DNA of 64,000 nt, from assembly GCF_026210795.1 (NCBI RefSeq), contig NC_089435.1:5208001-5272000 (forward strand). The letters are read 5' to 3'. The stretch is from Rhizophagus irregularis. Lineage: Eukaryota; Glomeromycota; Glomeromycetes; Glomerales; Glomeraceae. How positions within the stretch are numbered: position 1 is the first letter of the stretch; every line of letters starts with the position of its first letter. Below the pieces are notes generated by a model. It was not told the origin of the DNA, ran no database searches, and saw only the letters and a list, made by a program, of their open reading frames with translations. Positions 15,313-64,000 of this stretch are shown here, piece by piece. The translations under genes were made by a program, and so were the position numbers.

Positions 15313-16609
15313 TATAATTCGACTCACAGATTACGAATTAATTTTATAAATCTAGTAAATTTGATAAATTAACCTATTATGGCATATACATGTATTCATG
15401 TGATCATCTAAAAATAGCTAAACACGAATTAAATAAACAAACTTAATATTCTCTATACGCTCTATTTTGCAAGGACCGCTCATTGTACATTTGCGTAGCA
15501 GAAGACTAAGCAGAAGTATCATGAAAAGTATTTATATATATTCATAGGCTTTATGAATATTTATAATATTAATAAATTATACATGAAAAAGCTTTGCAAC
15601 AGCTGCTGGAAAAATGAACGCGTACTTTCAATATAGTAGAAGTATGGAAGTTATTTATATTTCATAATTTCATTAATATTCGTAGGTTTACGACTATTTC
15701 ATAATATAAATAATTGTTCATGGAAAGTTTTGCGTACAATATAATAATAAAGGTATGGAAAGTATTTATACTCCATAATTTAACTATTTTATACAATATT
15801 AATAATTATAACTGTTGGTCTAACTTTTGAACTTATAAAGTAAAAATAAAATTAACGCGTGCTCTCAATGTAGTAGTGTAGAAGGAATGGAAGGTATTTG
15901 TACTTTGTAATTTCGTTAATGTGTTTACATCTTTTTTATAAAAAATATTAATAATCACGCATAATGAACTGTTGGTTTAACTTTTTGAACTTGTAGAAAT
16001 AAAGTTAACACGTGCTTTCAATGTAATAGTGTAGAAGGAATGAAAGGTATTTGTACTTTATAGTTTCGTTAATATTCGTATGTTTACGTCTTTTTTATAA
16101 AATATTAATAATCACATAAAATGACAACTGTTGGCCTAACTTATTGAACTTGAATATTCGTTGATGCAGAAATGAATTTAACGCTCTCAACGTAGTAGTG
16201 TAGAAGGAATGGAAGGTATGTATTTCACGATTTTGTTAATGTTCGTATGTTTACGTCTTTTTTTATAAAAAATATTAATAATCACGCATATTGAAACTGT
16301 TGGTTTAACTTTTTGAACTTGTAGAAATAAAGTTAACGTGTGCTCTCAACGTAATAGTGTAGAAGAGATGGAAGGTATGTATTCCTTAATTTCGTTAATG
16401 TTCGTAGGTTTATGACTTTTTAATAATAATCACAACTGTTAATCCAACTTTTTGAACTTGTAATTGTTTGTTTGACATAGTAGTGTAGAAGGAATGGAAG
16501 GTATATACTTCATGATTTCGTTAATGTTCGTATGTTTACGTCTTTTTTATAAAAAATATTAATAATCACGCATATTGAAACTGTTGGTTTAACTTTTTGA
16601 ACTTGTAGA

Positions 16610-16785
16610 TATACATGCTGCCCAAATTATTTTGGGATGCCATAATTATAATTTGGAATGTCATAATTTATTCAGTTTATATATAATTTACTATGTAAAA
16701 TGCCAAAATAATTTGGGATGCCATAATTGAATTTGGGATTTTACTTATAATTACGGCAGTCCAAAATAATTTGGGTGGTATGTAT
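16610..16785. mobile_element. MITE with 9-bp target duplication ACTTGTAGA
   Basis: The ends are TATACATGCTGCCCAAATT and, as reverse complement of the right end, ATACATACCACCCAAATT. The flanks are ACTTGTAGA (16601-16609 and 16786-16794). Neighbouring array units show GAACTTGTAGAAATAAAG once, which is the empty site. Nine bases suggest a Mutator-like element (8 would suggest hAT). The insertion hits the acceptor of an array unit. Confidence 0.8.
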
Positions 16786-16843
16786 ACTTGTAGAAATAAA
16801 GTTAACGCGCTTCTTAACGAATAGCCGTAGTGTAGAAGGGATA

Positions 16844-17801
16844 CAAGGTCCCTCTATAGTCACTCCCGTTATAGTCACATTCTACTATATAGTCACACTA
16901 GTTGAATGTTCAAAACACTTTATTATTAAAATCTATCCTATATAGTCACAATCTATCTATAGTCACTATCACACCTATCCTCAAAAATCTTATATTAAAA
17001 AGAACTGTTTATAATCACAGTTATATAATGAATATATTAAATAACTTGGCATCTAATAATCGTACAAAGATGTATCATAGCTTGTTAGAATCGTCTTACT
17101 GAGACGAATCGAATGGTGGTAGTTTTATCCTTTTCCGATCACTAGCTGACGAGTTATTCAACAAAATGTCAAACATCGGGATTATAATATTTCTTGATTT
17201 ACGTTTACTGCGCCATTTAACATTTTACTAGATTTCTCAGTACTTAGTGATTGTAAAAAGACGATTTATAGCTCGTTGGAATCGCCTCATCGAGACGAAT
17301 CGAATGGTGGTAGGCTCATCTCTCTGTGATCAATATTGACGGAGTTACTACTTAAAAACTATTTAATATTTTTTAATTTCGGAAATTGATCTAGTGATTG
17401 GATTTCAATGTATTTTATACCATTAGATTCGTCTCATCAAGACGAATCGAATGGTAGTAAGATCGTCTTTCTAGGATCAATATTGGCAGAGTTACTACAC
17501 AAAAACCATTAATATTTTTTTAATTTCGGAAATTAATCTAGTGATTGGATTTCGACGTATTTTATACCATTAGAACCGTCTCATCAAGACGAATCGAATG
17601 GCGGTAAGATCATCTCTCTACGATTAATATTGGCAAAGTTACGATACAATAAAGTTTTAAGTATAATTCTAGCTAAAATTATGTTAATTTTTGGCCGGAA
17701 TTATGATATACAAATATAAGAAATTTTTTATATAGTCACATCTCTTTATAATCACCAAATATGGACTGTCCCAAATGTGTGACTATAAAGAGAGTTGACT
17801 G
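16844..17801. mobile_element. Pogo-like (Tc1/mariner) non-autonomous element
   Basis: It is flanked by TA. The left end is CAAGGTCCCTCTATAGTCAC; the right end as reverse complement is CAGTCAACTCTCTTTATAG. Sub-terminal TATAGTCAC motifs repeat. The interior has four copies of the GACGAATCGAATGG module (17100-17620), spaced roughly 150 bp. No transposase frame. Confidence 0.8.
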
Positions 17802-18719
17802 TATTCCTTAATTTCGTTAATGTTCATATGTTTACGACTTTTTAATAATAATCACAACTGTTTGGTCCAACTTTTTGAACTTGTAATGTTTGTTTGATGT
17901 AGAGATGAATTTAACGCTCTCAACGTAGTAGTGTAGAAGGAATGGAAGGTATGTACTTCACGATTTCGTTAATGTTCGTATGTTTACGTCTTTTTTATAA
18001 AAAATATTAATAATCTTGCATATTGAAACTGTTGGTTTAACCTTTTGAACTTGTAGAAATAAAGTTAACGCATGCTCCCAATGTAATAGTGTAGAAGAAA
18101 TGGAAGGTATATATTCCTTAATTTCGTTAATGTTCGTAAGTTTACTTTTTTTTTTATAAAAAATATTAATAATCACGCATAATGATAACTGTTGGTCTAA
18201 CTTTTGATCTTGTAATATTCGTTGATGCAGAAATGAATTTAACGCATGCTATCAACGTAGCAGTGTAAAAGGACTGAAGGTATGTACTTCATAATTTCGT
18301 TAATGTTCGTATGACTTTATTACAATTATGTTTATAGGTTAAGTTTTAATAACAATTTGTCTTTACAACACATTTTTTTGATATTAACAAATAATGTTAT
18401 CCAAATGACTTTTATTTTATAATATCAGATATAACAAAATATTAATCACAGATGAAATAGAAGTGAAGTTGAAAAATAAAAAGTCAAAGAACGAAAGTCA
18501 AATAAATGAAGATGAGCGACAAATAAGATTAAAAAAATTCTATTGACGAGATTGAACGCAATATTATGATAGTTTTAAATACAAATTATTTATTGTAGCT
18601 ATATTTTGAATAAAAATACAAAAATTACATAAATTTATAAAATATTACGTGTAAGTTACAGTGAAAAATATTATTTTGTAATTACATATATTAATCACTT
18701 GAATTTGTGAAAAAAGTTC

Positions 18720-19200: not shown

Positions 19201-20639
19201 TTTACGGAGTATTTCGCAGGTGTAAATTTTCGTAATATTACGTCGTATTCAATTTGCAGATGAATTTAGTGTAAACGTTATAACAATTTAAAACATTGAT
19301 TTAATAATTTTACATAATTTATTACAATATTATTTATTAACAAATGCACAATTATTATTTAACGATGAGAATCTATATTAATCTATATTCATCAGATATC
19401 CAATGATCCATGGGTAATCCACACCTCTAATTCATTCATGTATCTAATGTCCGATGCCAAAGTAGAAGCTAGTGAAAACCTACAAGAAGGAAGAAAAGAA
19501 ACGTCAGTTAACGTTTCTTAAAAAAAATAATAATTAATTAAGTTTCGCAACACAATGTTGCGAAACTCACTGGTTCATTTTGATTTCCATTATCCAAACG
19601 TCTGGAACCTACAAAAAGTAAAAAAGAAATGTTAGGTAATGTTTCTTTTTAAAAAAAAAGAATAAAAATTAAGTTTCACAACACAATGTTGCGAAACTTA
19701 CCGGTTCGTTTCGATTTCTATTATCCAAACGTCCAGAACTTACAAAAAGTAAAAAAGAAACGTTAGTTAACATTTCTTTTAATAAAAAAAAACAAAAATT
19801 AAGTTTCGCAATGTAACATTGCGAAACTTACCGGTCGTTTCATTCATTCTGACGTCCGGAACTTACAAAAAGTAAAAGAAAAAAACGTTAGTTAACGTTT
19901 CTTAAAAAAAAATAAATAAAAATAAAGTTTCGCAACACAATGTTGCGAAACTCACTGGTTCGTTTCGAACTCCATCATCCAAACGTCCGGTGTTTCTACA
20001 AAAAAAAAAGGAAACTTAAAAACGTTTCCTTACAAAAAAAATTTAAAAAATATTTTTTTTTAAAAAAGTTTCGAAGCGAAAAACGCTTCAAAACTTACCC
20101 TTTTGGTTCCTTACTTCCTGAAGTCGAATACCGAAAACCTACACAAAAGAAAATAAAGGATCGTTAAAACGTTCCTTATAAAAGTAAAAAAAAAAATTTA
20201 AAGTTTTGAAGCGAAATGCTTCAAAACTTACCATCATTTCATTTTCTCGTTTCAGTAAAAGCATCGAAAATCTTACAAAAAAGAAGAAAGGAAACGTTAG
20301 AAACGTTTCTTTACAAAAAAGAATTAAAAAAAAGATTTTTTAAAAAGTTTCGTAATGAAATGAAACTTACTTAACGTTCTGAACACTCTGATCCTACAAA
20401 AAGGCACTGGTCAAAATAGTCCAAATCGGCTAGAAATCGGATGTCCGATTTTAGGCTGAATTTGGTGATAAATATGGCCGATTTATTAATTTAGGCAAAG
20501 TTCTGATTGGCAGGCCGATCGATGCCGATCAGAATGTCTGAATTGTATCTGAATTGCTTAGTATTTTTAATCCGAATTGTTTAAAAAATATTATTCATAA
20601 ATTTACCGAATTGCAGTGAATTTATTCTGAATTATGGTA

Positions 20640-20890
20640 AATTTGTGACAAAAGTTTCTGAATTGTAGTAAAATTTATTCCAAATTGTAGTAAAATTTAT
20701 TCCGATTTGTAGTAAAATTTATTCCAATTTGTAGTAAAATTTATTCTGATTTGTAGTAAAATTTATTCCGAATTGTAGTAAAATTTATTCCGATTTGTAG
20801 TAAAATTTATTCTGATTTGTAGTAAAATTTATTCCGATTTGTAGTAAAAAATTTATTCTGATTTGTATTCTGAATTGTATCGCAAATTAC
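20640..20890. repeat. 22-24-bp tandem repeat
   Basis: About ten units of TTCCGATTTGTAGTAAAATT, with CC/CT and G/A variants. Confidence 0.85.
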
Positions 20891-23469
20891 AGTAAATTTT
20901 ATTCTGAAATTTAAAATATTACATATACATATAAAACAATTTCACCAAAAATCATCCCAACTTTCTAACAAATCCGGTATATGTTAAATTCCTTAATTCC
21001 CATTTGTTTCTACAAATTGGAGATGATTTTCCTACAAAAAAAAAAAGAAAAAACATTAAAATAACGTTTTTTTTTAAGTTTCAAGTTTCAAAAATCAAAA
21101 CGTTACCTGTAGGATGGCAAATCGAAGCCAATTTCCATACAAAAAAATAAATAAAATATAATAAAAAATGTTAAATTAAACATTTTTATTAAGTTTCGTC
21201 AAAAAGTTTCGAAAAATCGAAACTTTACCTGCGGATTCTGGTACAATTTGGAGCTGATTTCCTGCAAAAAAAAATAATAAAAAATAATAAAAAAAACGTT
21301 AAATTAAACGTTTTTTTATTAATTTGCGTCAAAAAGTTTCGACGAAACTTTACCTGCGGGATTCTGGTACAATTTGGAGCCGATTTCCCTGCAAAAAAAA
21401 TAATAAAATCTAATAAAAAAATGTTAATTTAAACGTTTTTTTATTAAGTTTCATAAAGTTTCGAAGTTTCATAAAGTTTCGAAACTTTGAAACTTTACTT
21501 GCGGGATTCCGATATCCAATTTGGAGCTGATTTCCTGCAAAAAAAATTAATAAAAATAATAAAAAAAACGTTAAATTAAACATTTTTTTTATTAATTTGC
21601 GTCAAAAAGTTTCGAAAAATCAAAACTTTACTTGCGGGATTCCGGTATCCAATTTGGAGCTGATTTTCCTGCAAAAATATTAATAAAATATAATAAAAAA
21701 CGTTATATTAAACATTTTTTTTATTAAGTTTCGTAAAGTTTCGAAACTTCGAAACTTTACTTGCGGGATTCCGGTATCCAATTTGGAGCCGATTTCCTGC
21801 AAAAAAAAAATAATAAAAATAATAAAAAAACGTTAATTTAAACGTTTTTTTATTAATTTGCGTCAAAAAGTTTCGAAAATCGAAACTACTTGCAGGATTC
21901 CGATATCCAATTTGGAGCTGATTTCCTGCAAAAAAAATTAATAAAAATAATAAAAAAACGTTAAATTTAAACGTTTTTTTATTAATTTTTTCAAAAAAGT
22001 TTCGAAAAATCGAAACTTTGCATGTGGGACCGGTATCCATATTGGAGCCGATTTCCCTGCAAAAATATTAATAAAATATAATAAAAAACGTTATATTAAA
22101 CATTTTTTATTAATTTTTTTCAAAAAGTTTCGAAAAATCGAAACTTTGCATGTGCAATTTCGGTATCCATATTGGAGCCGATTTCCCTACAAAAATATTA
22201 ATAAAATATAATAAAAAACGTTATATTAAACGTTTTTTATTAATTTTTTTCAAAAAGTTTCGAAAAATCGAAACTTTGCATGTGGGATTCCGGTATCCAT
22301 ATTGGAGCCGATTTCCCTGCAAAAAAAAATAATAAAATATAATAAAAAACGTTATATTAAACGTTTTTTATTAATTTTTTTCAAAAAGTTTCGAAAAATC
22401 GAAACTTTACCTGCGGGATTCTGGTATCCATATTGGAGCCGATTTCCCTGCAAAAAAAAATAATAAAATATAATAAAAAACGTTAAATTAAACGTTTTTT
22501 ATTAATTTTTGTCAAAAAGTTTCGAAAATTCGAAACTTTACGGTATTCCTACAATAATATTAAAAAAAAACGTTAAACGTTTTTTTCAAAGAAGTTTCGA
22601 AAATGCGAAACTTATCTGGAATATCGGCGTCCACGTTGGAGCCGATTTCCTATACAAAAGTAAAAAAAAACGTTTTTAGTAATATTAAAAAACGTTTTTT
22701 AAAGTTTTTGAAACTTTTGTTTCGAAACTTACCTTTGGAAATCAGTATCCAATAGGGAGCCGATTTCCTATATAAAAGTATAAAAAAAATGTTAGAAAAC
22801 GTTTTTTTTTATAAAGTTTCGAAGAAATTCTTCAAAACTTACCTTTGGAATTCGGTATCCAAGTAGGAGACGATTTCCTATATAAAAGTATAAAAAAAAC
22901 GTTAGAAAACGTTTTTTTTTATAAAGTTTCAAAGAAATTCTTCAAAACTTACCTTTGGAATTCGGTATCCAAGTAGGAGCCGATTTTCTATTTAAAAGTA
23001 TAAAAAAAAAATGTTAGAAAACGTTTTTTAAAGTAATAGTTTTGCAAAAAAAAATTAATAAAATCAGAACGTTAACTAATGTTCTGATTGAAAATATTAA
23101 ATGAAAAGTTAAAAAACGTTTTGTAAAAAATAAAAATGTTAAAAATTGGAACATTATTTCCGATAAAAAATTAAAAAAAAATCCCAAAACGTTTAAAACC
23201 GTTTTGTTTAGGAATGAAGTTAGATGAAGATAAAGTTTCGAAACTTTAGTTTAAATAAAGTCTAAATTCGGTAATAGATCAACTAATTGCCAGATTAATT
23301 TTACTGTGGCTGCGGCTTAGTACATCATAAGTTGATTTTGAAAAATCGTTTATTCGAATAACTTCTAAAATTGAGACAATTTTTCCATGCCCAAAAGTTT
23401 TGATTTCGACCAGTGCAATTTGATATAAAAGTGCCATAAATCAGACAATATTAGGCAAATTTTAAGCTG

Positions 23470-24190
23470 TTAATCAAATATGATAATTTTTTGCTAAATT
23501 TTTATTGAATTTTTATTGAATTGTTAATTTTCCATAAATCTGAAGTACATATTTGAATATTGTAAATTTTAGGTTGATTTACAAATTTGTCAGATTTTTT
23601 TTTTGATATCAATCAGCCGTCAATCAAATATAATGATTTTTTAACAAATTTTTGTTGGATTTTTATTGAATTTTTATTGAATTGTCAATTTTCCATAAAT
23701 CTGAAGTACATATTTGAATATTGGGTAAATTTTAGGTTGATTTGCCATTTTGTCAGATTTTTTTTTTTAATTTCAACCAGCATCAATCAGCTGTCAATCA
23801 AATATAATGATTTTTTGCTGAATTTTTATTGAATTTTTATTGAATATTTATTGAATTGTCAATTTTCCATAAATCTGAAGTACATATTTGAATATTGGGC
23901 AAATTTTAGGTTGATTTGCTATTTTGTCCATTTTTTTTTTAATTTCAACCAGCATCAATCAGCCGTCAATCAAATATAATGATTTTTTGCTGAATTTTTA
24001 TTGAATTTTTATTGAATATTTATTGAATTGTCAATTTTCCATAAATCGGAAGTGCATATTTGAATATTGGGCAAATTTTAGGTTGATTTGCCATTTGTCT
24101 ATTTTTTTGATTTCAACTAGCATCAATCAGCCGTCAATCAAATATAATGATTTTTTGCTGAATTTTTATCAAATTGTCTGATTGGCATCA
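23470..24190. repeat. ~195-bp tandem repeat, about four units
   Basis: The units contain CAATCAGCCGTCAATCAAAT and AATTTTCCATAAATCTGAAG. They form the right sub-terminal region of the CACTG-ended element. The stretch 23050-23470 before it is AT-rich and holds an internal GACCAGTG near 23410. Confidence 0.8.
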
Positions 24191-24694
24191 ATCAGATGTG
24201 CCGATTTATAATGTTAGTCAATTTTGGTCTGATTTTTGGCCGATTTTCCATATGTCCGATTTTTTTAATTTCGACCAGTGAGGATAAAGGAAACGTTTTC
24301 TAAACGTTTTCTAATAAAAAATTAAAAAAAAAAATTGAGTTTCGAAGTGAAAGTGTTTCACTTTGAAACTTACCATATCGAAGTAAATGCTTCGAAACTT
24401 CATGGTTTACCGAACTTGAAGACAAACCATACTCCTCTTTGAAGGTTTTCCTTCACCTCGTCTACTAAACATAAGAATTCCACGCATCGACCCAAAAATG
24501 AATAGACCATATCTTGGGACCCTTCTCAACAATGTGAATTTTACGGCAAAACTCATTTTCCAAAATCGAATACGTTAAATATCTACAAAAAAACAAGTAT
24601 AGGAGTCAGTTTCTAAAAGATATTAAAAACACAATTTTTAAAAAGTTTCAAAGCGTTTCGCTTTGAAACTTACCATTATTTTTCTGAAAGACGA

Positions 24695-24890
24695 TTCTGG
24701 GAAGGGAAAAGGGAAGGGGAAGGGAATGAAAGAGAAAGGGGGAAAACGAAATGGGAAGGGAGAACGAAGGAGAAAAGGGAGGGGAACGAAATAGGAAGGG
24801 AGAACGAAAGAGAAAAGGGGGAAAACGAAATGGGAAGGGGAGAACGAAGAGAAAAAGGGAAGAGAACGAAATGGAAATGGGAAAAGGCGA
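24695..24890. repeat. Polypurine tract (CT-rich on minus strand)
   Basis: Almost pure A/G on the plus strand, with degenerate repeats of GGGAAGGGAGAACGAAGGAG. Near its start are four close G runs (GGGAAGGGGAAGGG and a preceding GGGAAGGGAAAAGGG), a possible G-quadruplex. It lies immediately upstream, in the minus-strand sense, of array C, where CT-rich DNA is often a promoter feature in fungi. The antisense open frame here is a composition artefact. Confidence 0.8.
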
Positions 24891-25765: not shown

Positions 25766-27214
25766 AGGAAACCTTATCAACTAGCTCAAATAATTCTACT
25801 AAAACGAACAAGTTAACAACATATGAACGATTTGTTATTCCTACAAATAAAGATTTACAAGCTATTCAAGCTTATTCTCACGTTGCTAATACAGATGATA
25901 GTACTAAAACTTGGATGAATCTTTTTAATTCCTATAGAGAAGCAGCCAATTTTACTAATTCTCTTGAACTATTGGATGATACTACATTATAAGAACAGCT
26001 TTGTCAATTTTTTTGTGGTGTTAGAAAATCAGGAAAAAAAGAATATGCACCTTCTTCATTACATGTAGGCTTTGCTGCAATTGCTAGAGGATTGTCAGAT
26101 ATTTTTTATCCAAATAGAATTATTAATATTCGATGATAAACACAAATGGAAACGATTACATGAAATTTTTGATGGTCGAATTAAACAAATTCAAGACAAT
26201 CAAGATACATCCCGTAAGAAAACTGATGCACTTGAAATGTGTGAGATTAAAACTATCCTTGATTCACCAAATATACAAACTGATACACCAAAGGGTCTTA
26301 CATACTGTGTTTGGTTTTGGTTAACACTTCTTTGCAATCTGCGTAGTGGTGATCCAAAAAGACTAAAAAATTCCTGGATTGTTCTCAATGAAGATCACAG
26401 TATTGAAGTAAATATACCTCGTGAGAAAAATAATGCAGGAGGTGCCAAAAATCCTTACAATTCTGGTCAGCATAATTATATTCCTCCAGATCTACCAAAT
26501 AATTATTCACCAGTGGCAGATATTCTATTATATCAATCTAAAAGACCAAAAAACTGCAAAACTTCAGAGTTTTTTTTAAAAATAAATACACCACGAGAAA
26601 TATATCATGGTAATTGGTTTTCTGATTTAAAACTTGGCAAAAATTCTCATGATAATATGCTTAAAAATATTGTGGCAGATTGTAAAATTGATGCAAATGG
26701 ACGTAATCTTGTCAATCATTCAATGCGTTCAACTGGAATTTCTTTATGGATGTTACTTGGTATATCTCATGCAGAACAGATGGATATTACAGGACATAGA
26801 ACACTTGCTGGGATTTCTGCATATTCAACTTCAACTGCTCAACAAAGAAAAAAAAATGTTTCACTTCTTATTCCCCAAAAAAGAAATGCGGATGATCTTA
26901 ATGAAGAATGTTTAACTAAAAATTTTTCTAACAAAAAACAAAATCCTTTAAAAGAAAATACATCGGGAAATCAAGGTACCATAATTTTCCATATTTATTT
27001 TTTTACTTTTAATCTGAAAAATTACATATTTTTTTTAGGTTTTATTCCTGCTTCTCAATTATTACGATATGATCAACTTGAAATACAATCTTTAGAACAA
27101 GACCATAAAATAACTCAAGATTCATCAAAATTACCAATAATTAATATTGAAAATATTAATATTCAAAATTGTAATAATATAAAAGTAGAAGTTATTGTTA
27201 AACCATTTGAATAG
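25766..27214 (+). pseudogene. Crypton-type tyrosine recombinase, broken 5' part
   Basis: The catalytic region is open from about 26130 to 27214. Expected tyrosine recombinase residues are visible: Arg in CNLRSGDPKRLK, the HxxR box in NHSMRSTGISLW, the second His/Arg in DITGHRTLAGI, and the nucleophile Tyr in SAYSTST. An intron (26975 to about 27038, GTACC...TTTTTTTAG) probably separates a C-terminal exon starting FIPASQLLRYDQLEI. Upstream, TYERFVIPTNKDLQAIQAYS leads to a TAA at 25990-25992, and the frame changes again near 26125-26135. The order matches the DUF3504/Crypton class of fungal and metazoan recombinases. The catalytic half could still be intact, but the N-terminal half is dead. Confidence 0.75.
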
Positions 27215-28644: not shown

Positions 28645-31131
28645 TTGGACAATGGTGCCCCTTCGACCTGTGATCTTTATGAAACGCCGAAAAGCTATGT
28701 AGGAAAAATAGAAGAGGAATCACGTGAACAACAAACAACAACAGTCTCACCCTTAGCTTTGCTGGATGATCATTCAATGGAAATAAAAATTTTAGAGGAA
28801 CCCAAACACCAATCACCAGTGGTACCCTTGTGACATAAACAAAATTTAATGTATAAACTCAGCTGTATATCCCAAGAGGAAAGAAGTGTGTGACATATGC
28901 TGAAATCACAAAAGGTTCTAGTTCTGATAATTTTCAGCTTACATTACCATTCTCTTTAAAAAAATGGAACACTCAAAAGACTTCACCCAAAAGTAGTACA
29001 GTAGCAGCAGAATACCAAGAAACCTAAATTTATACTAGAAAGAATGATTTCGACTGTTATGACTGGATATCTGCCACAAAATAAGACTTGTGTCTGTGAA
29101 ATAGTCATTTATGATATCCCCTCAACCATGTCGCAACTTGATATTCTTATGAACCTAGGGAAATGGGGTCAAGTAATTGCATTCAAAGTTAAGATGTAAA
29201 AGAAGTATTCAACTGTAACTGTGTCTATAGACTTCAACAAGTAAACTTTGCTTAATTGGAATAACAGAGTTTGGACTGCTCCATTTGGAAGACTGCCTGT
29301 ACGATAGTTTTCTGCATCCTGGAATTTGAAGCAACGCAAAGAGCAAAAAAAATTCCAGGCCGTTGTTATGGATGTACCCAAATCTGTTACTAACAATATT
29401 ATTTACAATGCAGCGAATCCAGCCTAATCAATGCTATCACAATTAGATGGTACTTTAGCATTCAAAATTATTTAAGATCATGGACTAGAGCTCCGAACAG
29501 GTCAGCCAAATTCAGGTAATCTGACCTGACCTGACCTGACCTGAAATTCAGGTCAGGTATGAGATTTTTAAAAAAAATTCAGGTCAGGTATGAAGATTGA
29601 CCTGACCTGATTGACCTGTTAACCTGAAACTATTGATTCTACTATATAATAAAAGTGAGTTGCGGTATTGCGATTCACTTTTTTATATAGATTCTATATA
29701 ATAAAAGTGAGTTGCGGTATTGCGATTCACTTTTTTATATAGATTCTATATAATAAAAGTGAGTTGCGGTATTGCGATTCACTTTTTTATATAGATTCTA
29801 TATAATAAAAGTGAGTTGCGATATTGCGATTCACTTTTTTATATAGAATCTATATAATAAAAGTGAGTTGCAATACCGCAACTCACTTTTGTTATACAAA
29901 ATCAATATAAAAAAGTGAATTGCAGTATTGGGATTCACTTTTTTATATGATTTTAATATAAAAATGTTGAATCACAATATTTTGAGAAAAAACGTTGCGA
30001 AAACGTTTTTTCATAATATTATATTAAAAAAATGTTTCGTAACATTTTTTTTTTGATATTTCAATATTAAATAACGTTGCGAAAACATTTTTTTCATAAT
30101 GTTATATTAAAAAAAACGTTTTGCAATATTTTTTTCAATATTTTAATAAAAAACGTTGCAAAAACGTTTTTTTTCATAATATTATATTAAAAAAAAAAAG
30201 GTTTGTACCATTTTTTTTCAATACTTTAATAAAAATAGTCCTGAAATTTTTCAGGTTTCAGGTCAGGTCAGATCAAACAGACAACCTGATATAACCTGAC
30301 TTGACCTTACCTGAAAAAAAATTTCAGGTCAGGTTTATCAATTAACCTGACCTGACCTAACCTATTCAGAGCTCTATCATGGACGAAAGAAGTTGATTGT
30401 ATATTTTGACACTTAGGTTAGTTTGGATAAAACACTCAATACAGAATTCACTTTGAAGAATTTAAAGGTATTTGGACTAGATATTTTTCGTCCACCTTGA
30501 ATCGGCTTAAAAATAAACTACCAAAAAAGACAGATTCTACTCAAAAGTAGAACTAAGAGAAGATTCTGAATGTTATGCAGAATGTGAATAAATCCAATAA
30601 TAGACAGCTTAAGAAAGGGAAGTCTTTTGAAAAAAAAAAGCAATCTACTTCAAATAACAAGGCTTCAATGGTAACGACAAACTTATGATTTTGGCTGAAA
30701 TTCAAACGTTGCTAAGATCATTGACCAACTGACGAGAATACTAGGCCAAATAAGGAAAAATGGGATTATGGAATGCTCGCTATTATATATATAAATATTA
30801 ACCCTTTTTTTTTACCCTGTTTTTTTTTGTTTAAATCCTTTTTTTTTTCTACTGTTTCATAATGGGTCTTGCTGAAATTTCCTTATAGGTGTAAACTGAG
30901 AAGAGGGAATCCCCTCTAAGAACAAATATACACTTAACACAGAAAGTACTCTCATAGCCTAAATTCTACTTGACAGTGTACATGTGGAATCCTTTTCAGG
31001 ATGATGAGTGGTTTAGTTTCTACTGATTATTAGTTTACTCTTTTCATTTTCATTTGTATGATGTATTATGATTATATTATTCTAATAAAGAAACTAAATA
31101 TGTTGCAGTAAAAAAAAAATAATAAATAAAA
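28645..31131 (+). pseudogene. Decayed retroelement ORF1-like gene with poly(A) end
   Basis: Fragments in shifting frames are FQLTLPFSLKKWNTQKTSP, YDIPSTMSQLDILMNLGKWG, YSTVTVSIDFN, LNWNNRVWTAPFGRLPVR, RKEQKKFQAVVMDVPKSVT and, beyond a MITE, GRKKLIVYFDT and ILAEIQTLLRSLTN. At least eight stops or frameshifts are present. I associate this order with an abundant protein family in arbuscular-mycorrhizal genomes, probably ORF1 of a non-LTR retroelement. A 3' tail with AATAAAG near 31083 and an A-rich tract at 31108-31131 supports retroposition. A hAT MITE at 29486-30376 interrupts it. The element sits at the 3' end of the minus-strand gene at 31137-32195. No matching long duplication was found at the 5' side. 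Confidence 0.5.
29486..30376. mobile_element. hAT MITE, perfect 8-bp TSD TCATGGAC
   Basis: The ends are TAGAGCTCCGAACAGGTCAG and, as reverse complement, TAGAGCTCTGAATAGGTTAG. TCATGGAC flanks it at 29478-29485 and 30377-30384. The interior has ACCTGACCTG-rich sub-termini, five ~55-bp units of AAAAGTGAGTTGCGGTATTG, and AACGTTGCGAAAACG repeats. Confidence 0.93.
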
Positions 31132-46138: not shown

Positions 46139-46585
46139 CACAGGTCGAAAAGTGAAAAATCAGTCACCAATTGGTGACCGATTGGCATTTTCGCCAAATA
46201 CCGTCACCAATCAGACAGTTTACTAACTTTTGATCCAGTGATCAGAAAAAGATGAAATATAGCTCATTGGAATCATCTTAACAAGACGAATCTAATGGTA
46301 GTAAAATCGCATCTCTAGGATTAATAGTTAATAAAAAATTAAATAAAATATAATTGATACATTTTTATTTTTATATTTTACTTAATTTCTCATCAAGTAT
46401 TAATCCTAAAAATGCGATTTTACTACCATTAGATTCGTCTTGTTGAGACGATTCCAATGAGCTATATTTCATCTTTTTCTGATCACTGGATCAAAAGTTA
46501 GTAAACTGCCTGATTGGTGATGGTATTTAGCGAAAATGCCAATCAGTCACCAATTGGTGACTGATTTTTCACTTTTTGACCTGTG
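46139..46585. mobile_element. Foldback MITE, CACAG ends, 3-bp TSD ATC
   Basis: It begins CACAGGTCGAAAAGTGAAAA and ends TTTTTCACTTTTTGACCTGTG. ATC flanks both sides. It is a close relative of 39495-39975, with the same inner AAGACGAATCTAATGG module pair. Confidence 0.92.
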
Positions 46586-50360: not shown

Positions 50361-50979
50361 ACTTTCCAATTTTCAAATAATCACATGACGATTGGTAAAT
50401 GTTATTTTTACTTAAATAACAAATAAAATTTAAGTAAATCATCAAGTTTTCAAGTAATTTTAAATGATGTAACGGTCATAACACTGACATAATTGTTTGT
50501 TATATAGATATAAAAATCGATTCTTCAGGTTATATTTAAACGTATTACAAAAGAATCTGGCTATTGGAAATGGAATCCAGAAGTTATAAATACTTGAAAA
50601 CTTCTTATAAAACAAAAATAAGCATAGTACATTTTCTTTCAAATTGTAATAAGCTGAAGAAACAAAGAAATACATCAGTAAATTTTTTGGGATGTGGATC
50701 CCTAAGGATTCTATAAATTACTATAGAATCTTTAGAGATCCAGTATTTTATGGATTTCTCAAAAATCCTATAACAAATTTTAAGGATTTTTTTGGATTCT
50801 GCAGCTTATAGGATTCATAAGGATTTCCAATAAAAAATCTTTAAGGATTCTATACTAAAAATCAATTTTACTTTTCACGTAAAATGATCTACAAATATGT
50901 GTTACAAAATTATTGATGTCATATGACTTGTTCGATTTCAAAAAAAATGGTTTCTTTTTTTAAAATAAACTTTAACAAT

Positions 50980-51115
50980 ATCTTTTCTTTACCACTCACA
51001 TGTAATTTTCCTTCCTCTTCATATGTTTCCCCTTTTACACGTTCTTTCCTATATATTTTTCTCTTCCCCTTTCACTCTATGTACTTTCTTTTTTTTTCCT
51101 CTTTCCAATGTTAAT
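50980..51115 (+). promoter_or_regulatory. CT-rich stretch upstream of array D
   Basis: The stretch has many CTTTCC and TTCCTC runs on the plus strand, directly before the first cassette. Its position and strand match the CT-rich tract before array C. Promoter function is inferred only. Confidence 0.35.
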
Positions 51116-51189
51116 ATAGAATATTTTTTTGGAAATTAACATTTTTTTTTCGATTTAATTTTCAAAGCTTTTTTTAAAAACTTTCTAAC

Positions 51190-52960
51190 GTTTTTCTATA
51201 TTTTTAGATAGCTTCTTAAGCTCTTTGGTCGATGGCATTTTGGTAGGTATTTTTTTTTATTTTTTCTTTATTTATTTTAATGAACATTACTAATTCATTT
51301 TTTTTTCTTTTTTTAGAATTTTTTTCAATATAGAAATGCAGTATATATATATATATATATATATTGAGTAAAAATTTTTTGTTTTGATGAATATTATTTA
51401 CTAATTGTTTGTCTTCTTTTTTTTAGGTATTTTGTTGAGACTCTTAACATAAACGAAATTGAGTAAGTAAAAAAATTTTTTAATGATTTTTTTATTTTTT
51501 TTTTATTTTAAAATTTATTAATTGGTTTGTTTTATTTTCCTTAGATTTTTTCAACATGAATATTCAATAAGTAAAAATGATTTTATAGTTTTTTTATTTT
51601 AACGAACATTACTAAATATTCATTTTATTTCTTTTTTCTTTAAGCAGTTTCTTAAAATCTCTCTGGGTGTTGATGGGAATGACAGGTATTAAAAAAAATT
51701 TTTTTTTTCTTTTTTCTTAATGAACATTTCTAATTGTTTGTTTTTTTCTTTTTTTTAGGTATTTTTTGAGACTATGGACATGGGAATTTGGTAATTAAAA
51801 ATATATATACATATATAATTTTTTATTTTAACGAATATCATTATTAACTTTTTATTTTCTTTTTTTTTTAGCAGTTTCTTTGAGTCTTTCTAGAAATGAT
51901 GTTGTGAAATACTGGTGAGTAAAAGAAAAATATTTTTATATTCTTTTTAATATTAATAAACATTACTACCAAACTGTATTTTTTTTATTATAATATTATC
52001 GAAACATTACATACTACAGATAAATCTGCAATTTCAGCATAGATCATATGACTTATTGATTTGATTTACCGATTGATAATCTTTTTTTAAAGTTTTTTTT
52101 TAACTGAATTATTTAAAAAAATTTATTTCCTTTTTATAAATCATTTTTTTTTTTAAATCAAATATTTTTTTAAAAAATTATTTTCTGAATTTATTTAAAA
52201 AGAAACTTTTTTTAGCCTGAGTGATTTTTTATCAGTTTTTAAATCAAATAATTTTTTTAAAAAAATATATATTTTTTTTTTCTTTGGACTTAGTTTTTAG
52301 CATAGAATGGTAAGTTGAGGAGTACAGTACATATTTTTTTTATTATAGAAATGTTTAATACTAATGTTCCTTTTCATTTTTTTCTTAAAGACGGCGAACT
52401 TCAGTCTGGAACTTTGGAATGGTAAATTGAGAGGGGGGTTGTGTCTTTTAAACAGTTACTTATTTCTTTTTTCTCTTTTTAGAGGGTTGTTCTTCAGCTT
52501 TTTAGACGTAAAATTTGGCGAGAATAGTTTTTCAGTGAGGTTAAATAATTTTCGTTTTTTATTTTGTTAATGAATTATTTCTAACAGTTCAATTTTTCTT
52601 TTGTAGATGGGCTTGTTTATTTGGATATTAGACATGTGAAAGTTGGTAATGGGGTTACTTTTAATAATAATTTTTTTAACAAAACTTAATTAAAAGAATA
52701 AAACTAATAGCATTTTTAATTCTCTCCTGTAGATATTAACTTTAAACTTGGATATTGCTTGAGATCAGATATTTTGACATGAGATCAGGTACATACTGTT
52801 TATTTAAAGAAATTTCTTTGATTTTGTTTTTATTCAAAGATATTAATGATGCTTTTTTTTATTTTTTTTATAGATATCTGGCTTTGGACTTTAGATATGG
52901 AGTCAATACCAAAATTTGATGCAACTAATGGGAATTGTAATAATAATTTTAAAATTAATA
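51190..52960 (+). repeat. Array D: about 11 mini-exon-like cassettes, plus strand
   Basis: Each cassette has an acceptor (TTTTTTTTAG, CTCTTTTTAG, CTTTTGTAG, CTCTCCTGTAG), a 26-60-bp body, and a donor (GTAAGTAAAA, GTGAGTAAAAG, GTAATGGGG, GTAAATTGAG). Examples: 51208-51242, 51427-51462 and 51545-51570. Bodies share words such as TTGGATATTAGACATG, GAGACTATGGACATGG and GGAACTTTGGAATG. T-rich spacers of roughly 60-110 bp separate them. No protein frame runs through all bodies as read. Confidence 0.7.
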
Positions 52961-53097
52961 AAATTAGACACATTTTAGTATTTAATTATTGAAGCTATTT
53001 TTATTTAATACTTTTGATTAATTAGCTTTAAAAAGAATATATAATAATGCATGGAATATAATAAATAGATGTATTAATAATAATAAATAAAATATAA

Positions 53098-53307
53098 CAC
53101 ACGTCGAATGACCAAAAACAGGCAAAAAAAAATGGCTAGAATTGCATAAACTATTCGCAAATTTATATAAACTATTTACAAATAGTATAGGTTAATTCGC
53201 AAATAGCCAAAAACAGCCAAGAATAGCTAAAAATAGCCAAGAATAACCAAGAATATCTACTGCTTTTCATGCCATTTTTTTGCTGATTTTTAGCATTTCG
53301 ACCTGTG
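53098..53307. mobile_element. MITE, CACAC/CACAG ends, 3-bp TSD TAA
   Basis: The left end is CACACGTCGAATG and the right end as reverse complement CACAGGTCGAAATG. TAA flanks both sides. The interior has AATAGCCAAGAATA repeats. It is nested in the 50673-53528 element. Confidence 0.8.
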
Positions 53308-53528
53308 TAATAAATAAAATTAATAAATTTAATGATATAATAATAGACAAATATAAATAAAAAAATACTTTAAGGATTTCTTATTGGCGAACTTAGGATC
53401 CTTAAGGATTCTATAAAAATTTTATGATAGGGAATCCTCGCTGGTGGGAAAGGTTCCTTAGGAATCTTTACTAATTACAGGATTTTTGGAATCCCTAAGA
53501 ATCTGCGCTCCAAAAAATTTACTGATGT

Positions 53529-57993: not shown

Positions 57994-58662
57994 TTTTTAT
58001 TTTTATGATTTTTTCGTAACTTGAAATTTGAAAATTAAATACAATTTGAAAATTAAAATACAATTTGGTTTTGAATTGCGAAAAAAAAATTCAAATTTCA
58101 TAATATTTATAATAATTTTAAAATTCGTTATAATGTTTAAAACATGAACTGATGAACATAATAACATTCTACATAATTAAAGTATTTGTAACAAAATAAA
58201 CACAGTTTTGATTCTAATGTAATAAATTTAATTAACGCAGTTCTAAATTTTTTTTTGTAACGCAGTTCTTAAAATTTATTGATCTAATGTAATAAATTTA
58301 ATTAACAAAGTCCTTAAAACTTATTGATTCTAATATAATATGCTTATCCTTATTCCTTAATTAAATTGCACTATTTTTAAAATATAATATGCTTATCCTT
58401 ATTCCTTAATTAAATTGCACTATTTTTAAAATATAATATGCTTATCCTTATTCCTTAATTAAATTGCAATGTTTTAAAATATAATATAAAATTACAATTG
58501 CCTGCATTGCCTGCATAATTATATGTTAACTGGACTTTGATCGCGAATATTTTGCCCTGCATAATTACATCATTTATTTCCTAAATAGTATCATTATTTA
58601 AATCACATGATATTAGAATTAATTCTCATTGGATTAACTATTGTAATTATTTCTCATTATTA
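57994..58662. repeat. AT-rich spacer with a 55-bp tandem repeat
   Basis: Three units of TATGCTTATCCTTATTCC followed by TTAATTAAATTGCA (about 58345-58465). No gene seen. Confidence 0.6.
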
Positions 58663-61600
58663 TTATTCCTCATTATCATCATAATTATCGTCATTATTAT
58701 CACCGTCATCCATACCTAATACATCATCTATATCATAATCATAGTCACCTTCTCCGGGTCTCTTGTTATTACCACTATCATCAACTTCATCATCTTCCGC
58801 ATTATTTTCATCTGAATCATCCAATATATCTCTTGGAATATCGCCGATTTCACTAGTAATTGAATCATGCGATAAATTAACAAATTGATCAATCCATAGA
58901 CTTTCGATTACTACACGGCAATTGTCTTCGGGTATTGTTTCACCGCTTGTAGTTAATCTCTGAGTAGAAGCTTGCTCCTCATTATATTCCTCATCGTCAT
59001 CTTCTGCAAAAGCTTCTGCAATACGTATATTGATCTCATCATCACTAAGACGAGTATTCACTGGTCGAATGAAGGGCTACCGGGTAAATTTCATATACCC
59101 GATAGCCCTATTATATGTTTTCGATTTTAACCTGAATGGCAGCTGATCGATCCACCCGATTTGTGACCGGTTCTCGGTGCAGATCAGGTATAAGTCATGT
59201 GACTTTCAGGTTAGAACATAACGGTAAAGTGCTATATGAATATCGGGAGAATTTCAGCAATCCGATATTTCTCCGAACTATTTATAATATTAGATGTATA
59301 TTTGCTACATCGAAACCCGAAACTTATTATTTATTTATTTATATATACTATATATTATTCATTTATTTATTTATTTAACATAATAACATATATATATATT
59401 TATTTTATTATTATATTTTTAAAAATTATATTCGTTAATTTATCCTATTCTATCTATCTACATTATGTTGTTAATGGTTTGGAATATTATTCCAGTTGGT
59501 TCGATTCCAACAAACAACTATTTTTCCCAAAGTTTTTATGCCAACTCTTCCGAACTATTGCCTACTAATACCAAACGAATTAAGCAGAAGATGGATATTA
59601 GATTGTGGTGGATTAGGTTGATTTTGACTTGGTAAAATTGTGAGTGAAATATTATTTCGTTCTCTATAAAAAAAAAGAACGTTTAGTAAACGTTCTTAAC
59701 GAAAAATATTAAAAAAAATAAGTTCTGGTACCTTGTGTCAATTTCATCTTGAGCGAATTACCTACAAGAAAACGAAAAAAGTAACGTTAAAAATGTTACA
59801 AAAAAAAATAGAAAAACCCTTCTATTTACCTTTCGTCCAAAGTCCAGTTCGTAATCTTGTCTGGCGTTCCTACTAAAAAAGAAAGAAACGTTAGTACGTT
59901 TCTTTAAAACAATTAAACACCATACACCGCATTATCCCATATACCTAAGTCCAGGTTCTCCCAAATTCCTAGGAGTCCGGTAATCTAAAAAACAAAAAAA
60001 GAAACGTTAATACGTTTCTTTAACATAATTAAACACCAACGCTATACACTTCCCCATATACTTTACCGGGTTCTTCCAAATTCCTAGGAGTCCGGTAACC
60101 TAAAAAAATGAAAAAAAGAAACGTTAATACGTTTCTTTAATACAATTAATGCCATACACTCCTCCCATATATTTTACCGGATTCTTCCAAGTCCGGTAAC
60201 CTAAGAAAATGAAAAAGAAACGTTAGTACGTTTCTTTAACACAATCAAACGTCATACGCCACCCATATATTATACCGAGACTTCCAAGTTCCTAGGAGTC
60301 CGGTAACCTAAAAAAATTGAAAAAAGAACGTTGATACGTTTCTTTAACAGCCCCCATATATCTAAATCCGATTTATTGAAAAAAAAATATTTAGTTTCGA
60401 CAAAAAAACTTACCGAATTTAAATACCGAGCTCAACAAATCCTACAAAAAAAGAAAAAGAAACGTTAAAACGTTTCTTAATAAAAATAAAGTTTCGTAAC
60501 GATTTTCGTTACGAAACTTACCATTTCGACCTTAGAGTACCGGAGCGGCGGAGCCTACAGATTCTACAAAAAAAATAATAAGAACGTTAGAAACGTTCTT
60601 TGAAAAATAAAAAAAATATTGAAAGTTTGAAACTTACCCTCTCTTAGGCCTTAGCATCCCAGTCCGGTATAAAAGTCGAAGGGAGCCTACAAAATAAATA
60701 AAGAAACATTAGTAACGTTTCTTTAAAAAAAAAATAAAAAAAGAATCGAAGTTTCAAAACGAAACTTCGAAACCTAACCGAAATCCAATATCCAGAGAGT
60801 ATCTACAAAAAGAAGAAACGTTAATATAACGTTTCTTACAAAAAAAAGAATAAAAAAAGATTGTTTCGCAACGTTTAAACTTACCGTTTCGAAACACCGA
60901 GCCGAACACTTGAACCTACAAAAAAAGAGAGAAACGTTAATATAACGTTTCTCAAAGAAAAAAATTTTTTTAAGTTTCGTAACGTAACTAAACGTCGCGA
61001 AACTCACCGTCATTTCGAATTTCACAAGGCCGAAATACTTGAACCTACAAAAAAAAAGAGAGAAACGTTAATATAACGTTTCTTACAAAAAAAATAAATA
61101 AAAAATAAGTTTCGCGTTGTCAAAACTTACCATTCGAAAAGTTGCCATTTGACAAGCCCCCACTAACCTACAAAAAGAGAGAAACGTCAGAATAACGTTT
61201 CTCAAACTCAAAAGAAAAAAAATTCAGTTTAAGCTTGAACGCTGCGAAACTTACCGTTCGTTTCGTTGAAAAATGAAAAAAGATATTTCGAAGTATACTT
61301 GAAGTATATCTTCGAAATGTCGAATTTAATTTCGTCCGTCTAAGGAGCCGCCCAAAAGAAACCGAACCTAAAAAGAAAAAAAACGAAACGTTAATAAACG
61401 TTTCGTTGAAAAAAAACAAAAAAAAATATATTTCGAAGTATACTTCAAGTATACCTTCGAAATGTCGAGTAAGGAGCCGCCCAAAGAAGTCGAACCTAAA
61501 AAAGCAAAAAACGAAGCGTTAATAAACGTTTCGTTGAAAAAAAAAAACCCAAAAAGAAAGACATTTTGAAGTATATATACCTTCAAAATGTCTTATTGAT

Positions 61601-64000
61601 TTCCGTCCGTCCAAGAAGCCAAGAAGCCGCCCAAAGAAGCCGAACCTAAAAAGAAAAAGAAACGAAACGTTAATAAACGTTTCGTTAGTCGAAAAAACAA
61701 AAAAATAATTATTTCGAAGTATACTCGAAGTATACCTTCGAAATATCGAGTTCCGTCTCCAAGGAGCTGCCCAGCCGAACCTAAAAAAGCAAAAAAAACG
61801 AAGCGTTAATAAACGTTTCGCTAGTCGAAAAAATAAAAAAATAAATTATTTCGAAGAAGTATACCTTCGAAATGTCGAATTCCGAACCTATACCTTCGGC
61901 GTTCTGGACCTAAAAAATAAAAAAAGAATATTAGTGCTAACGTTCATTAAAACAAATAAAAAAAAATTTTTTGCTTACTCCGGAAGACTGGAACTAATTT
62001 AGATACCGGTATATGTCTTCGGCTTCCTTAAAGTCTCCAAGAGTCCGGCGTTTCCTTCAAAAGAAAAGAAGTCCGGAGACTACTAAAGTGAAACTTTTTA
62101 ATCCGTTTCTGCATGTTGCAGATTATATTCCGAACGTTGGACGAGCTTGCCAGAAGTTAGAAATTTGATTTCGAGTTAAATATTTGGTTCTTCAAAAGGT
62201 GTGATAAAAATTTATTTATTTAAAGTATTGTAAGAAAAAAGTTAAAAAAAAATTAACTTTAAAGTGTAAAAAAAAAAAGTTTATCAATTAAAAAAAAGAT
62301 CAAAGATTTTTGTGGGAATAGAAATAATTACATGCCGTAAATTATTCCAATGACCTATCAGACTACTGATAGGTATAATAAAATTTTCTGATATTTTAAT
62401 GATATGTCTTTAAAAAATCAGATTTTTTTCATAAAATATTATTAAACATTTCGGATTACCGATACTTGTAAATGTTTAATATTGCCTATCATGCCATATC
62501 GGGTTTCTGATTATTTCCTGATATTTGACCAATACGTTATTACCCGATATTTCATCATTTGACCAGTGATTCTTTTTTTGATCAATTCCATAAAATCCAA
62601 GTTCAGTTTTTGAATTGGATTTCCAATACAAAATTAATTTGCACATGGATTCTAGTTTATCCACATTAAGATTTAAGCGACGTTTATGAAATAGCCATCC
62701 TAAAGTCGAAAATCCACGTTCGCAAGTTGCTGAGTTAGGACATATTGCAAATAGATAACTTGCAATTCTTGGCAGGACATCTGGTTCTGGTTCGGTATTA
62801 ATATATTTCCACCAATTCACGGGATTATCTTTAGCAAAACCGATATCTAGGTCAAATGGCTCTTGCTCATTAATATATTTCTGTATTTGATCACATAAAG
62901 TTTCAGCTTCGTAACGGTCGAAACCTAAATTTTTCCCGATTGAAGCTGCACATTTGATAATTCTCATGAGGGCGCATTTTTTAAGTGGCGCGTTTCTAAA
63001 TCTGGGATCCATAAAAAAACAAGTAATATACTTATCATCATCGAATTCATCAAATCTTTCATTTATTACTTTGATACAATGACTTCGGAATGCAGGATTT
63101 AATGATTTGGGTAACTTTTTTAATGTAGCTGCAAGTCTTGCCAAGCTCAGGAAACAATCTGCAAGTGTAGCTCTTCTCGATTCTAATGAAAGTACCGCTT
63201 TTCTTAGAGGATCCAGAACAAACCCAAGAACTCGTAAATTTGAAAAAAAATTTCTCGATTGAATAATCGGTTTTATTTTATCATTTGTTAGCACTTTATC
63301 GTGATCGCTGGCCATTTCTTCTAGTGCTGATTCCAAATTTATTACTGAATTTACGGATTCACTAGCAGTAGTCCAGCGTGTCTTGCAATATAATTTTAAT
63401 CCTCCTCCACTAATTCCTTTTTCTTTAATTATTTGAGCAAGTTTTGCATTAGCCTGATGAGAACTTCTAAAAAAGGTTGTCAAAATATTAACACGTTTTA
63501 ATAAACGTTCCCCAAACTTCTCCTTGACGATGTCGCATGCAATTAAATTGATAGAATGTGCAACGCATCGCACATTCTCAATCTTTGGATGATTCTCATG
63601 TATAATTTTTCGTGCATTACGAACATTGGCCGCATTATCGGAAACTACAGCACATATTCGATCTTCTCCAATACCTTCTATAACCTTTTCAATTACCGTA
63701 ACTAGATATTCTGCAGTGTGCGAATTTTCAGACAAATCAGAAAGTTGATAAAGATATTCTTTACGCGACGGAGTCATTACAATGAAGTTCCAAATTGAAC
63801 GATGTGTACCAGACGTCCAACCATCAAAGGCTAAATTATAAATTAATATTATATAGTAAGTAAGATTAAATAAAAATGACGTATGATAGCCTATTTAATT
63901 TAACAAACCTAACGTTAAATTCGTTTCCTTTTCAAGCTCAGAATTAACTTTGAAGTTCACTTGAGCTAATTCACGTTCAAGTAGTTGATTTACTAATACT
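58663..64000 (-). CDS. hAT transposase, DUF659-type, split by a CACTG element
   Basis: A cut-and-paste transposase. The minus strand runs off the window: the exon above 63909 continues upstream (LLERELAQVNFKVNSELEKE). An intron (63831-63908) joins in phase to FDGWTSGTHRSIWNFIVMTP, typical of DUF659 and the RNase-H-like fold. Then come VVSDNAANVRNARKIIHENH, CVAHSINLIACDIVKEKFG, KTRWTTASESV and the hAT dimerisation segment CPNSATCERGFSTLGWLFH, RRLNLNVDKLESM. The frame reaches the element border at 62569. After the 3.5-kb element it resumes with no loss from 59058 to 58663 as an acidic tail (RLSDDEINIRIAEAFAEDD, then Asp/Glu/Asn-rich). Apart from the insertion no stop or shift was found, so the gene was intact until recently. 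If the element is not removed from RNA, the protein ends inside it after about 30 extra residues, keeping all catalytic parts. Confidence 0.88.
59059..62568. mobile_element. 3.5-kb CACTG-ended element, 3-bp TSD ATT
   Basis: The left end is CACTGGTCGAATGA; the right end as reverse complement is CACTGGTCAAATGATG. ATT flanks it at 59056-59058 and 62569-62571. The host coding frame is continuous when the element and one ATT are removed, which fixes both borders. It has no transposase; the interior is mainly array E. Subterminal DNA repeats ACCGGGTA/CCCGATAT. Confidence 0.92.
59650..62060 (-). repeat. Array E: minus-strand mini-exon-like cassettes with hairpin spacers
   Basis: About 18 units of 110-140 bp. 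On the minus strand the clearest read TTTTTTGTAG, a 28-49-bp body, then GTAAGTTTCG or GTGAGTTTCG. Bodies at about 60412, 60524, 60635, 60885, 61010 and 61130 include words such as GTTCAAGTATTTCGG and GGACTCCTAGGAATTTGG. Each spacer carries AAACGTTAA...TTAACGTTT-type palindromes. Toward 61250-61900 the units change to a form with TTCGAAGTATACTTCAAGTA inverted repeats and an acceptor that ends TTTTTAG. The whole array is inside the CACTG-ended element and on the same strand as the interrupted transposase gene. Confidence 0.75.

Follow-up and report, generated by a model that had tools for sequence, protein, structure and literature searches.

A 64-kb stretch of the Rhizophagus irregularis DAOM197198 genome (hereafter the window) contains rows of short exon-like units, each with an acceptor-like sequence in front of it and a donor-like sequence behind it, and the question raised by this locus is what such rows are and what keeps their signals in place. 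A first-pass annotation had described four arrays of one plan and had read them either as micro-exon genes with variable products or as elements that use splicing to limit the harm done to their hosts; its observation proved largely right, and its interpretation is partly supported. Having searched the window and the genome (146.7 Mb in 32 contigs), we consider it fairly likely that the rows are transposon-borne spliceosomal exon-intron arrays, which would be transcribed in sense and spliced through micro-exons to a mainly non-coding short RNA. Their carriers are non-autonomous DNA transposons plus other dispersed repeats of R. irregularis, and selection on the lineages that spread has most likely preserved the splicing signals to a greater degree than the exon bodies.

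Strand-specific arrays of exon-like units

Candidate splice sites were scored by donor hexamer, pyrimidine tract, YAG and branch motif, with weights that follow a fungal consensus and were not trained on R. irregularis, and a chain parser linked introns of 40–140 nt with short exons between them in 1500-base segments on both strands of the whole 64 kb. Ten segments had a chain score above 30, all overlapping arrays A, B1, C or D and each on a single strand, against medians of 5.9 and 6.0. The arrays A, C and D and a part of array B of the first-pass annotation were recovered in this way, but its region B at 19.4–24.7 kb turned out to hold two arrays, B1 and B2, the latter below the cut-off. 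Array D scored 83.8 in sense, 3.6 in antisense and 12.0 ± 4.3 in 40 dinucleotide shuffles; the corresponding values were 50.2, 9.0 and 16.6 ± 6.8 for A, 50.8, 1.5 and 6.8 ± 3.6 for B1, 24.3, 3.8 and 4.1 ± 1.7 for B2, and 42.9, 5.5 and 7.8 ± 3.7 for C. Since the sense scores of all five arrays lie outside the shuffle null and the antisense scores near or below it, the arrays are strand-specific; the single orientation per array that had been claimed is thereby borne out, as is the expectation that a splice model would separate the units of A, B1, B2, C and D from shuffled repeats.

A unit consists of an exon of about 25–60 nt and an intron of about 50–120 nt. The intron opens with GTAAGT, GTGAGT, GTATGT or a similar donor, and its 3' end has a branch-point motif, in many cases YTAAC, followed by pyrimidines and AG. 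Predicted exons are mostly about 24–65 nt long in A, B1, B2, C and D, and predicted array introns have a median length of 84 nt (5–95%: 53–121 nt; 192 distinct introns). The intron set behind this and the following counts of stems and folding comprises introns with a parser score of at least 11 (576 kept, 192 distinct), loci L001 and L002 and the relatives of array A (L021–L028) being left out. The unit described earlier, an AG acceptor, a body of about 25–50 bp and a good GT donor, holds generally, except that much of B2 has poor donors, and the alternation of CTTGTAG and GATGCAG acceptors that had been placed in array B actually belongs to array A (15.4–18.3 kb).

Transposons as carriers

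The arrays are dispersed repeats or transposon cargo and not plain satellites; neither this setting nor the placing of branch points in stem-loops had formed part of the first-pass annotation. Element D, the bulk of which is array D, has CACTGGTC ends and a 3-bp target duplication, ATT in the window and TGC in a copy on contig C2. Termini of the form CACTR and target duplications of 2–3 bp are hallmarks of CACTA/CMC transposons, and both features were found in D and B2, with CACTGGTC termini and the duplications ATT, TGC and AGG at the three insertions examined. Element C, which array C fills, has the terminal inverted repeats and TA duplication of Tc1-mariner elements, in the window as well as in a copy on contig C27 with identical ends CATCAGTAAATTTTTTGG and TA flanks, and can be regarded as mariner-like by these ends. 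The array plan is, accordingly, found in elements with two unrelated end types, CACTGGTC (D, B2) and TA-flanked (C). Tandem Repeats Finder (TRF) reported no array-scale tandem repeat over array C, and no ATG frame of more than 110 aa lying wholly in element D or B2 was found in the window.

Element D's upstream end, as read in sense, occurs at 18 genomic places with at least 89% identity over its length, the window included, 14 of them being at least 99% identical, and the same search gave five further places with weak matches only. A 2801-base query of array D had 13 genomic matches of at least 93% over nearly its full length. Identities were 99–100% for the upstream end at the 14 places and mostly 96–98% for matches of the whole array; array D changes faster than the upstream end. 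Array A belongs to a longer dispersed repeat, with homology continuing to about position 19265, and a 961-base query from array A gave 15 near-full matches of at least 91%, the window included. Adjoining array A lies a large repeat (6001–14400) that recurs internally roughly every 3 kb; one of its pieces, of 440 bases, is seen at 7395, 10469 and 13404. For two diverged arrays elsewhere (L073 and L069), a search for ends by exact 13-base inverted repeats around them revealed nothing convincing.

Table 1. Arrays, their carriers and an interrupted transposase-like frame in the window.
Feature	Position	Strand	Description
Array A	15440..18320	+	Exon-like units of ~46–50 nt; GTATGT-type donors; CTTGTAG/GATGCAG acceptors
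Array B1, 3' part (sense order)	19383..20370	-	7 predicted introns
Array B1, 5' part (sense order)	24281..24720	-	2 predicted introns; separated from the rest by element B2
Element B2	20405..24280	-	CACTGGTC ends; AGG flanks (20402-20404, 24281-24283); inserted in B1
Array B2	21000..23040	-	Exon-like units of ~36 nt; acceptors TTTTTTTGCAG or TATAG; many poor donors
Element C	50673..53527	+	Ends are inverted repeats CATCAGTAAATTTTTTGG; flanked by TA at either end
Array C	51081..53025	+	13 predicted introns; exons mostly 24–56 nt
Element D	59059..62568	-	3510 bp; ends CACTGGTCGAAT...ATTTGACCAGTG; ATT on both sides (59056-59058, 62569-62571)
Array D	59762..61978	-	17 predicted introns in three blocks; exons and donors differ, 3' module nearly constant
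Element D, tail past last predicted acceptor	59059..59761	-	May be a terminal exon and poly(A) region; AATAAA occurs four times
Element D, upstream end (sense order)	62250..62568	-	Candidate promoter
hAT-type transposase-like frame	62476-63777, open stretch 58660-59056	-	DUF659, Dimer_Tnp_hAT; interrupted by element D

Retention of splice sites

Splice sites were predicted in the window copy only and then read in its relatives (7 D, 16 B1 and 7 C loci; A and B2 were left out), other non-CpG GT/AG pairs serving as comparison. In D, 310 of 320 splice GT/AG were kept (0.969) versus 961 of 1085 other pairs (0.886; site permutation P = 0.0002), in B1 401 of 448 (0.895) versus 1118 of 1518 (0.736; P = 0.0002), and in C 138 of 160 (0.863) versus 452 of 564 (0.801; P = 0.03). 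A whole-unit profile search brought together 176 B1-type units from 17 loci, with 31 or 38 nt as the commonest exon lengths; 168 of them have the AG and 164 the GT, the donor hexamer being GTAAGT in 125 and GTGAGT in 38. Their mean column identity is 0.974 at AG and 0.965 at GT, 0.868 and 0.838 in the intron parts, and lowest in the exon (0.785). In a simple Fisher version of the retention test, AG was kept in 191 of 232 cases in B1 and GT in 210 of 216, the lower AG count being partly due to the parser, which takes a shifted AG in the window copy. Among 14 close copies of D, splice GT/AG vary at 4 of 68 sites versus 64 of 362 other GT/AG sites (P = 0.011), and a weak signal of constraint among such close copies is expected if single copies drift after insertion.

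With GT and AG retained in diverged copies and scores above those of shuffles, the splice signals exceed what a plain satellite would be expected to show, as the first-pass annotation had argued; the strand-specific scores and retained splice dinucleotides set the arrays apart from an unconstrained tandem repeat without strand-specific signals. A separate observation concerns CpG sites in D exons, which vary in 46 of 104 cases versus 62 of 627 non-CpG sites and suggest methylation-linked mutation.

A shared 3' module with a stem-loop

Unit sequences had been described as different between arrays, yet B1, B2 and D, together with arrays elsewhere in the genome, have a 3' intron module in common. 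In D, it is composed of GAAACGTT, a short loop with TTAAC or CTAAC, AACGTTTC, pyrimidines and TAG, near-constant across the three blocks, and many introns outside A are laid out in the same way: first a stem-loop, the loop of which includes the branch-point motif, and then pyrimidine tract and AG. In every family except A, part of the introns have the branch motif on such a stem-loop. An exact-pattern scan of the genome gave 935 matches and none for the pattern read backwards. The list of 100 matches ends at 5.06 Mb of contig C2 (6.14 Mb), and 93 were analysed after removal of seven longer readings of the same hairpins, two of those kept overlapping others on the opposite strand. Among the matches listed, YTAAC was in the loop in 76 of 80 with a pyrimidine tract versus 3 of 13 without it (Fisher P = 3e-8), so that the loop corresponds to a branch point mostly where the remaining 3' splice site follows; the 76 display 24 distinct loop sequences. 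Modules with a pyrimidine tract form 31 clusters on C1 and C2 among the matches listed.

Branch-point stems with a score of at least 8 were found in 70 of the 192 distinct array introns (B1 20/42, B2 9/17, D 13/38, other arrays 22/59), compared with 1.6% of 3840 dinucleotide-shuffled introns and 0 of 19 predicted chaperonin-gene introns of R. irregularis, the latter taken from a reading-frame search at six of seven chaperonin loci (L083 overlaps L085) and some of them doubtful. The stems covary: among them are 64 different arm-loop-arm sequences, and paired changes are frequent, as in the arms AACGAACT/AGTTCGTT, ACGAAACA/TGTTTCGT, AAGGATCGTT/AACGATCCTT and GAAACAATT/AATTGTTTC. A second stem, with the donor at its foot, is present in roughly one in four distinct introns; such donor stems of at least 6 bp were present in 50 of 192, compared with 1.5% of letter-shuffled controls and 0 of 19 chaperonin introns. 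The 5' stem of B1 showed 189 doubly changed pairs, and its mismatches were more often G-U (102, of which 36 at the donor +3 pair) than A-C (36). Sense-strand folding energies gave a mean z of -2.10 for array introns (A +1.15, C -0.48) and +0.31 for chaperonin-gene introns. A further candidate, a stem formed by exon and intron with 7 bp or more and the donor GT in its loop, was dropped as not general (4/192, 0.7% of shuffles, 1/19 gene introns), and the window had no match in Rfam. Overall, the pattern is real, strand-specific and constrained, in an unexpected setting, and the predicted branch point often lies on a stem-loop.

Weighing the explanations

Several results weigh against spliced, structured arrays as the explanation. 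Array A is the weakest case, none of its 9 introns (7 distinct) having a branch-point stem; in C, only 6 of 29 distinct introns have one and the introns are hardly more folded than shuffles (mean z -0.48), and 122 of the 192 distinct introns overall lack a strong branch-point stem. B2 donors are often GTAAAG or have GC replacing GT, only three B2 introns passing the strict parser, and by the simple Fisher retention test neither C (P = 0.14) nor B2 (P = 0.18) was significant (A left out). Among the 14 D copies, CpG explains much of the difference, non-CpG sites being variable at 82 of 1018 positions in introns and 62 of 627 in exons, and a triplet test gave P = 0.12. In the 3' stem of B1, A-C mismatches (79) outnumber G-U (39), with 214 other mismatches mostly at the two outer pairs; the comparison of G-U with A-C as a test for sense-strand RNA structure was therefore set aside as mixed, the 5' stem favouring G-U and the 3' stem A-C. 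The antisense strand folds equally well or better (mean z -2.77 versus -2.10), so folding alone cannot show RNA as the level of selection and, together with the A-C excess in B1, makes a DNA-level cause of the palindromes possible. Finally, the hairpin stands without splice signals in 13 of 93 matches (of those listed) and also in hairpin satellites of the window. Two satellites, at 48602-49583 and 29642-30235, consist of near-palindromic units with some AACGTT-type hairpins and have low splice-chain scores.

If the arrays were DNA-level repeats only, the palindromes and T-tracts would be transposase-binding or replication-linked motifs and their likeness to splice sites incidental. Subterminal repeat motifs are a known feature of CACTA elements, and hairpins that fold equally on both strands, some of them without splice signals, are what this explanation would lead one to expect; we nevertheless regard it as quite unlikely, given that the arrays keep one orientation through the element and are not inverted at its two ends, that YTAAC is in the loop mostly where pyrimidine tract and AG follow (the 76/80 and 3/13 of the matches listed), that splice dinucleotides are retained better than the same dinucleotides elsewhere, and that elements of both end types, CACTGGTC and TA-flanked, repeat the plan. 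An introner-like proliferation, with hairpin introns mobile in themselves and multiplied as introns, would account for near-identical, structured introns in many copies, and inverted repeats are known in some introner families (PMC9860276). Multiplication is seen here, however, as whole arrays in transposons, exons included, and the terminal repeats and duplications of D, B2 and C enclose the element as a whole, an intron as the mobile unit not being encountered there. Eight isolated-looking module matches were fetched; six lay in chains of 7–13 predicted introns (scores 20.0–70.4) and two (L070, L074) among three predicted introns each, and none of the eight could be shown to be a lone intron of a host gene. 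Proliferation of this kind seems highly improbable.

Protein-coding micro-exon genes, in which the arrays would encode repeat or variable proteins with few residues per micro-exon and most copies would have decayed, have a small but real chance of being the answer. Joined D exons contain one stop in the best frame (6–16 in the other frames) over about 240 codons in 6 of 13 copies, window included, and in copy L010 an open run takes up 239 of the 244 codons; L010 and L003 gave shuffle P values of 0.000–0.002 and exon-order permutation P values of 0.011–0.019, L008 0.002 and 0.079, respectively. D exons have 48% GC versus 20–33% in the window, and nominally long open runs were also found in A (P = 0.02), L077 (0.04), L036 (0.05) and the D relatives L014 (0.01) and L015 (0.03). 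Yet the stop-count test fails A (P 0.21/0.29), L077 (0.62/0.95) and, by exon order, L036 (0.046/0.53), and none of 16 further chains, tested beside the three D copies, stands out, L057 (0.054/0.053) and L036 coming nearest. Exon lengths ignore multiples of three (remainder 0/1/2: 187/201/167), codon-position bias is absent in D3-like, B1 38-nt and B1 31-nt exons (11, 29 and 37 distinct; P 0.29–0.96), and B1 exon bodies are less conserved than B1 introns. The D chain itself includes a 113-nt stretch, perhaps partly intron, and omits one of 184 nt, its open-frame P of about 0.01 precedes correction for several families, and exon stretches of more than 110 or 125 nt were excluded from the frame tests. 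Only D, then, has a strikingly open frame, which suggests coding there, and the variable proteins envisaged in the first-pass annotation are not what the arrays as a whole point to. Two further attempts were abandoned: the same-frame test of 39-nt D3-like exons, promising by eye, failed, and a gene finder rewarding coding length kept introns as exons when run on D copies.

Comparison with known systems

The arrays resemble Schistosoma micro-exon genes (MEGs) in layout, introners as mobile intron material and stwintrons in their inverted repeats; for MEGs and introners a defining feature failed or was not clearly present, and stwintrons have a differing plan. Exons of MEGs are typically symmetric (mostly multiples of three), coding and situated in host genes, and are joined in mRNA by splicing that is often alternative. 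Rows of very short exons between introns are common to both, but array exons have neither lengths in multiples of three nor codon-position bias, coding is suggested at best for D, and the arrays are transposon cargo.

The introners or introner-like elements (ILEs) known from fungi and algae (PMC4457414, PMC9860276) likewise provide many near-identical introns from mobile DNA, but enter unrelated host genes as introns, whereas the arrays move introns and exons together in a larger transposon. The internally symmetrical stwintrons of Hypoxylaceae (PMC8469720) are proliferated fungal introns with inverted repeats and possible double-stranded RNA; theirs are terminal inverted repeats of 45–55 nt and nested introns in genes, in contrast to the two short separate stems (donor; branch point) in tandem arrays described here. 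The CACTG termini and 3-bp duplications of D and B2, and the TA duplications of C, match those of CACTA/CMC elements (Plavaka among them) and of Tc1-mariner elements in R. irregularis (PMC11075540), the difference being the exon-intron-like cargo of the array elements, inside which no transposase was found. SP7-like effector genes of R. irregularis (PMC11333574) also combine repeats with an intron, but the conserved intron reported for them precedes the first repeat, while in the arrays introns are predicted between the units all along. These effectors, and the AGL surface proteins (PMC8786786), were set aside by gene structure as described in those papers, not by sequence comparison. A word search of open-licence papers, with subscription papers and preprints outside its range, found no description of such arrays among the papers it listed, nor do the passages drawn on here contain one.

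Other elements of the window

Short elements of about 280–450 bp at 14474-14752, 34475-34836 and 46139-46585 have inverted ends that are CACTGGT-like, CACATTGGTC-like or CACAGGTC-like and are perhaps small relatives of the CACTGGTC elements. A frame at 26237-27214 (+) gave a weak match, below the cut-off, to DUF3504 (PF12012), a domain seen in Crypton-like tyrosine recombinase proteins, and a frame of 172 aa at 35158-35676 (-) contains a hAT C-terminal dimerisation region.

Proposed mechanism and significance

Transcription, actual splicing and a benefit to the element are what we infer from this anatomy. Transcription would start at the conserved upstream end of the element or read in from the host; the spliceosome would then excise the short, often structured introns, the signals for which are present; and a short RNA would result, made up of the spliced micro-exons and the AATAAA-bearing tail. 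The element might gain a compact spliced product, or might use the spliceosome for export and stability of its RNA, our first guess being a spliced, exportable RNA. The idea that splicing limits host harm gets no support from the layout. The first predicted donor lies 590 (D), 1328 (B2) or 408 nt (C) in from the end of the element, and all three have weak-to-middling candidate splice sites in their terminal 250 nt (the best terminal donor of C scores 5, the array median being 4.5), so that clean splicing-out of the element is not predicted.

A wider reading, which we find possible but less likely than not, is that the arrays are a genome-wide transposon cargo with at least two unrelated end types, probably numbering hundreds and selected for being read by the spliceosome, with branch points on stem-loops, and that the spliced micro-exon RNAs serve the element as well as forming a reservoir of splice-competent exons for the host. 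The figure of hundreds genome-wide is an extrapolation from the 31 clusters on C1 and C2.

If the arrays are spliced, they would represent a transposon route to make and spread whole exon-intron series rather than single introns, and would offer a natural library of structured introns for studying the effect of a branch-point stem-loop on splicing. Two-thirds of the transposable elements of R. irregularis have been reported as unclassified (PMC11075540), and the arrays may explain part of them. For the gene annotation of R. irregularis, this means that such arrays could pass for, or conceal, multi-exon genes.

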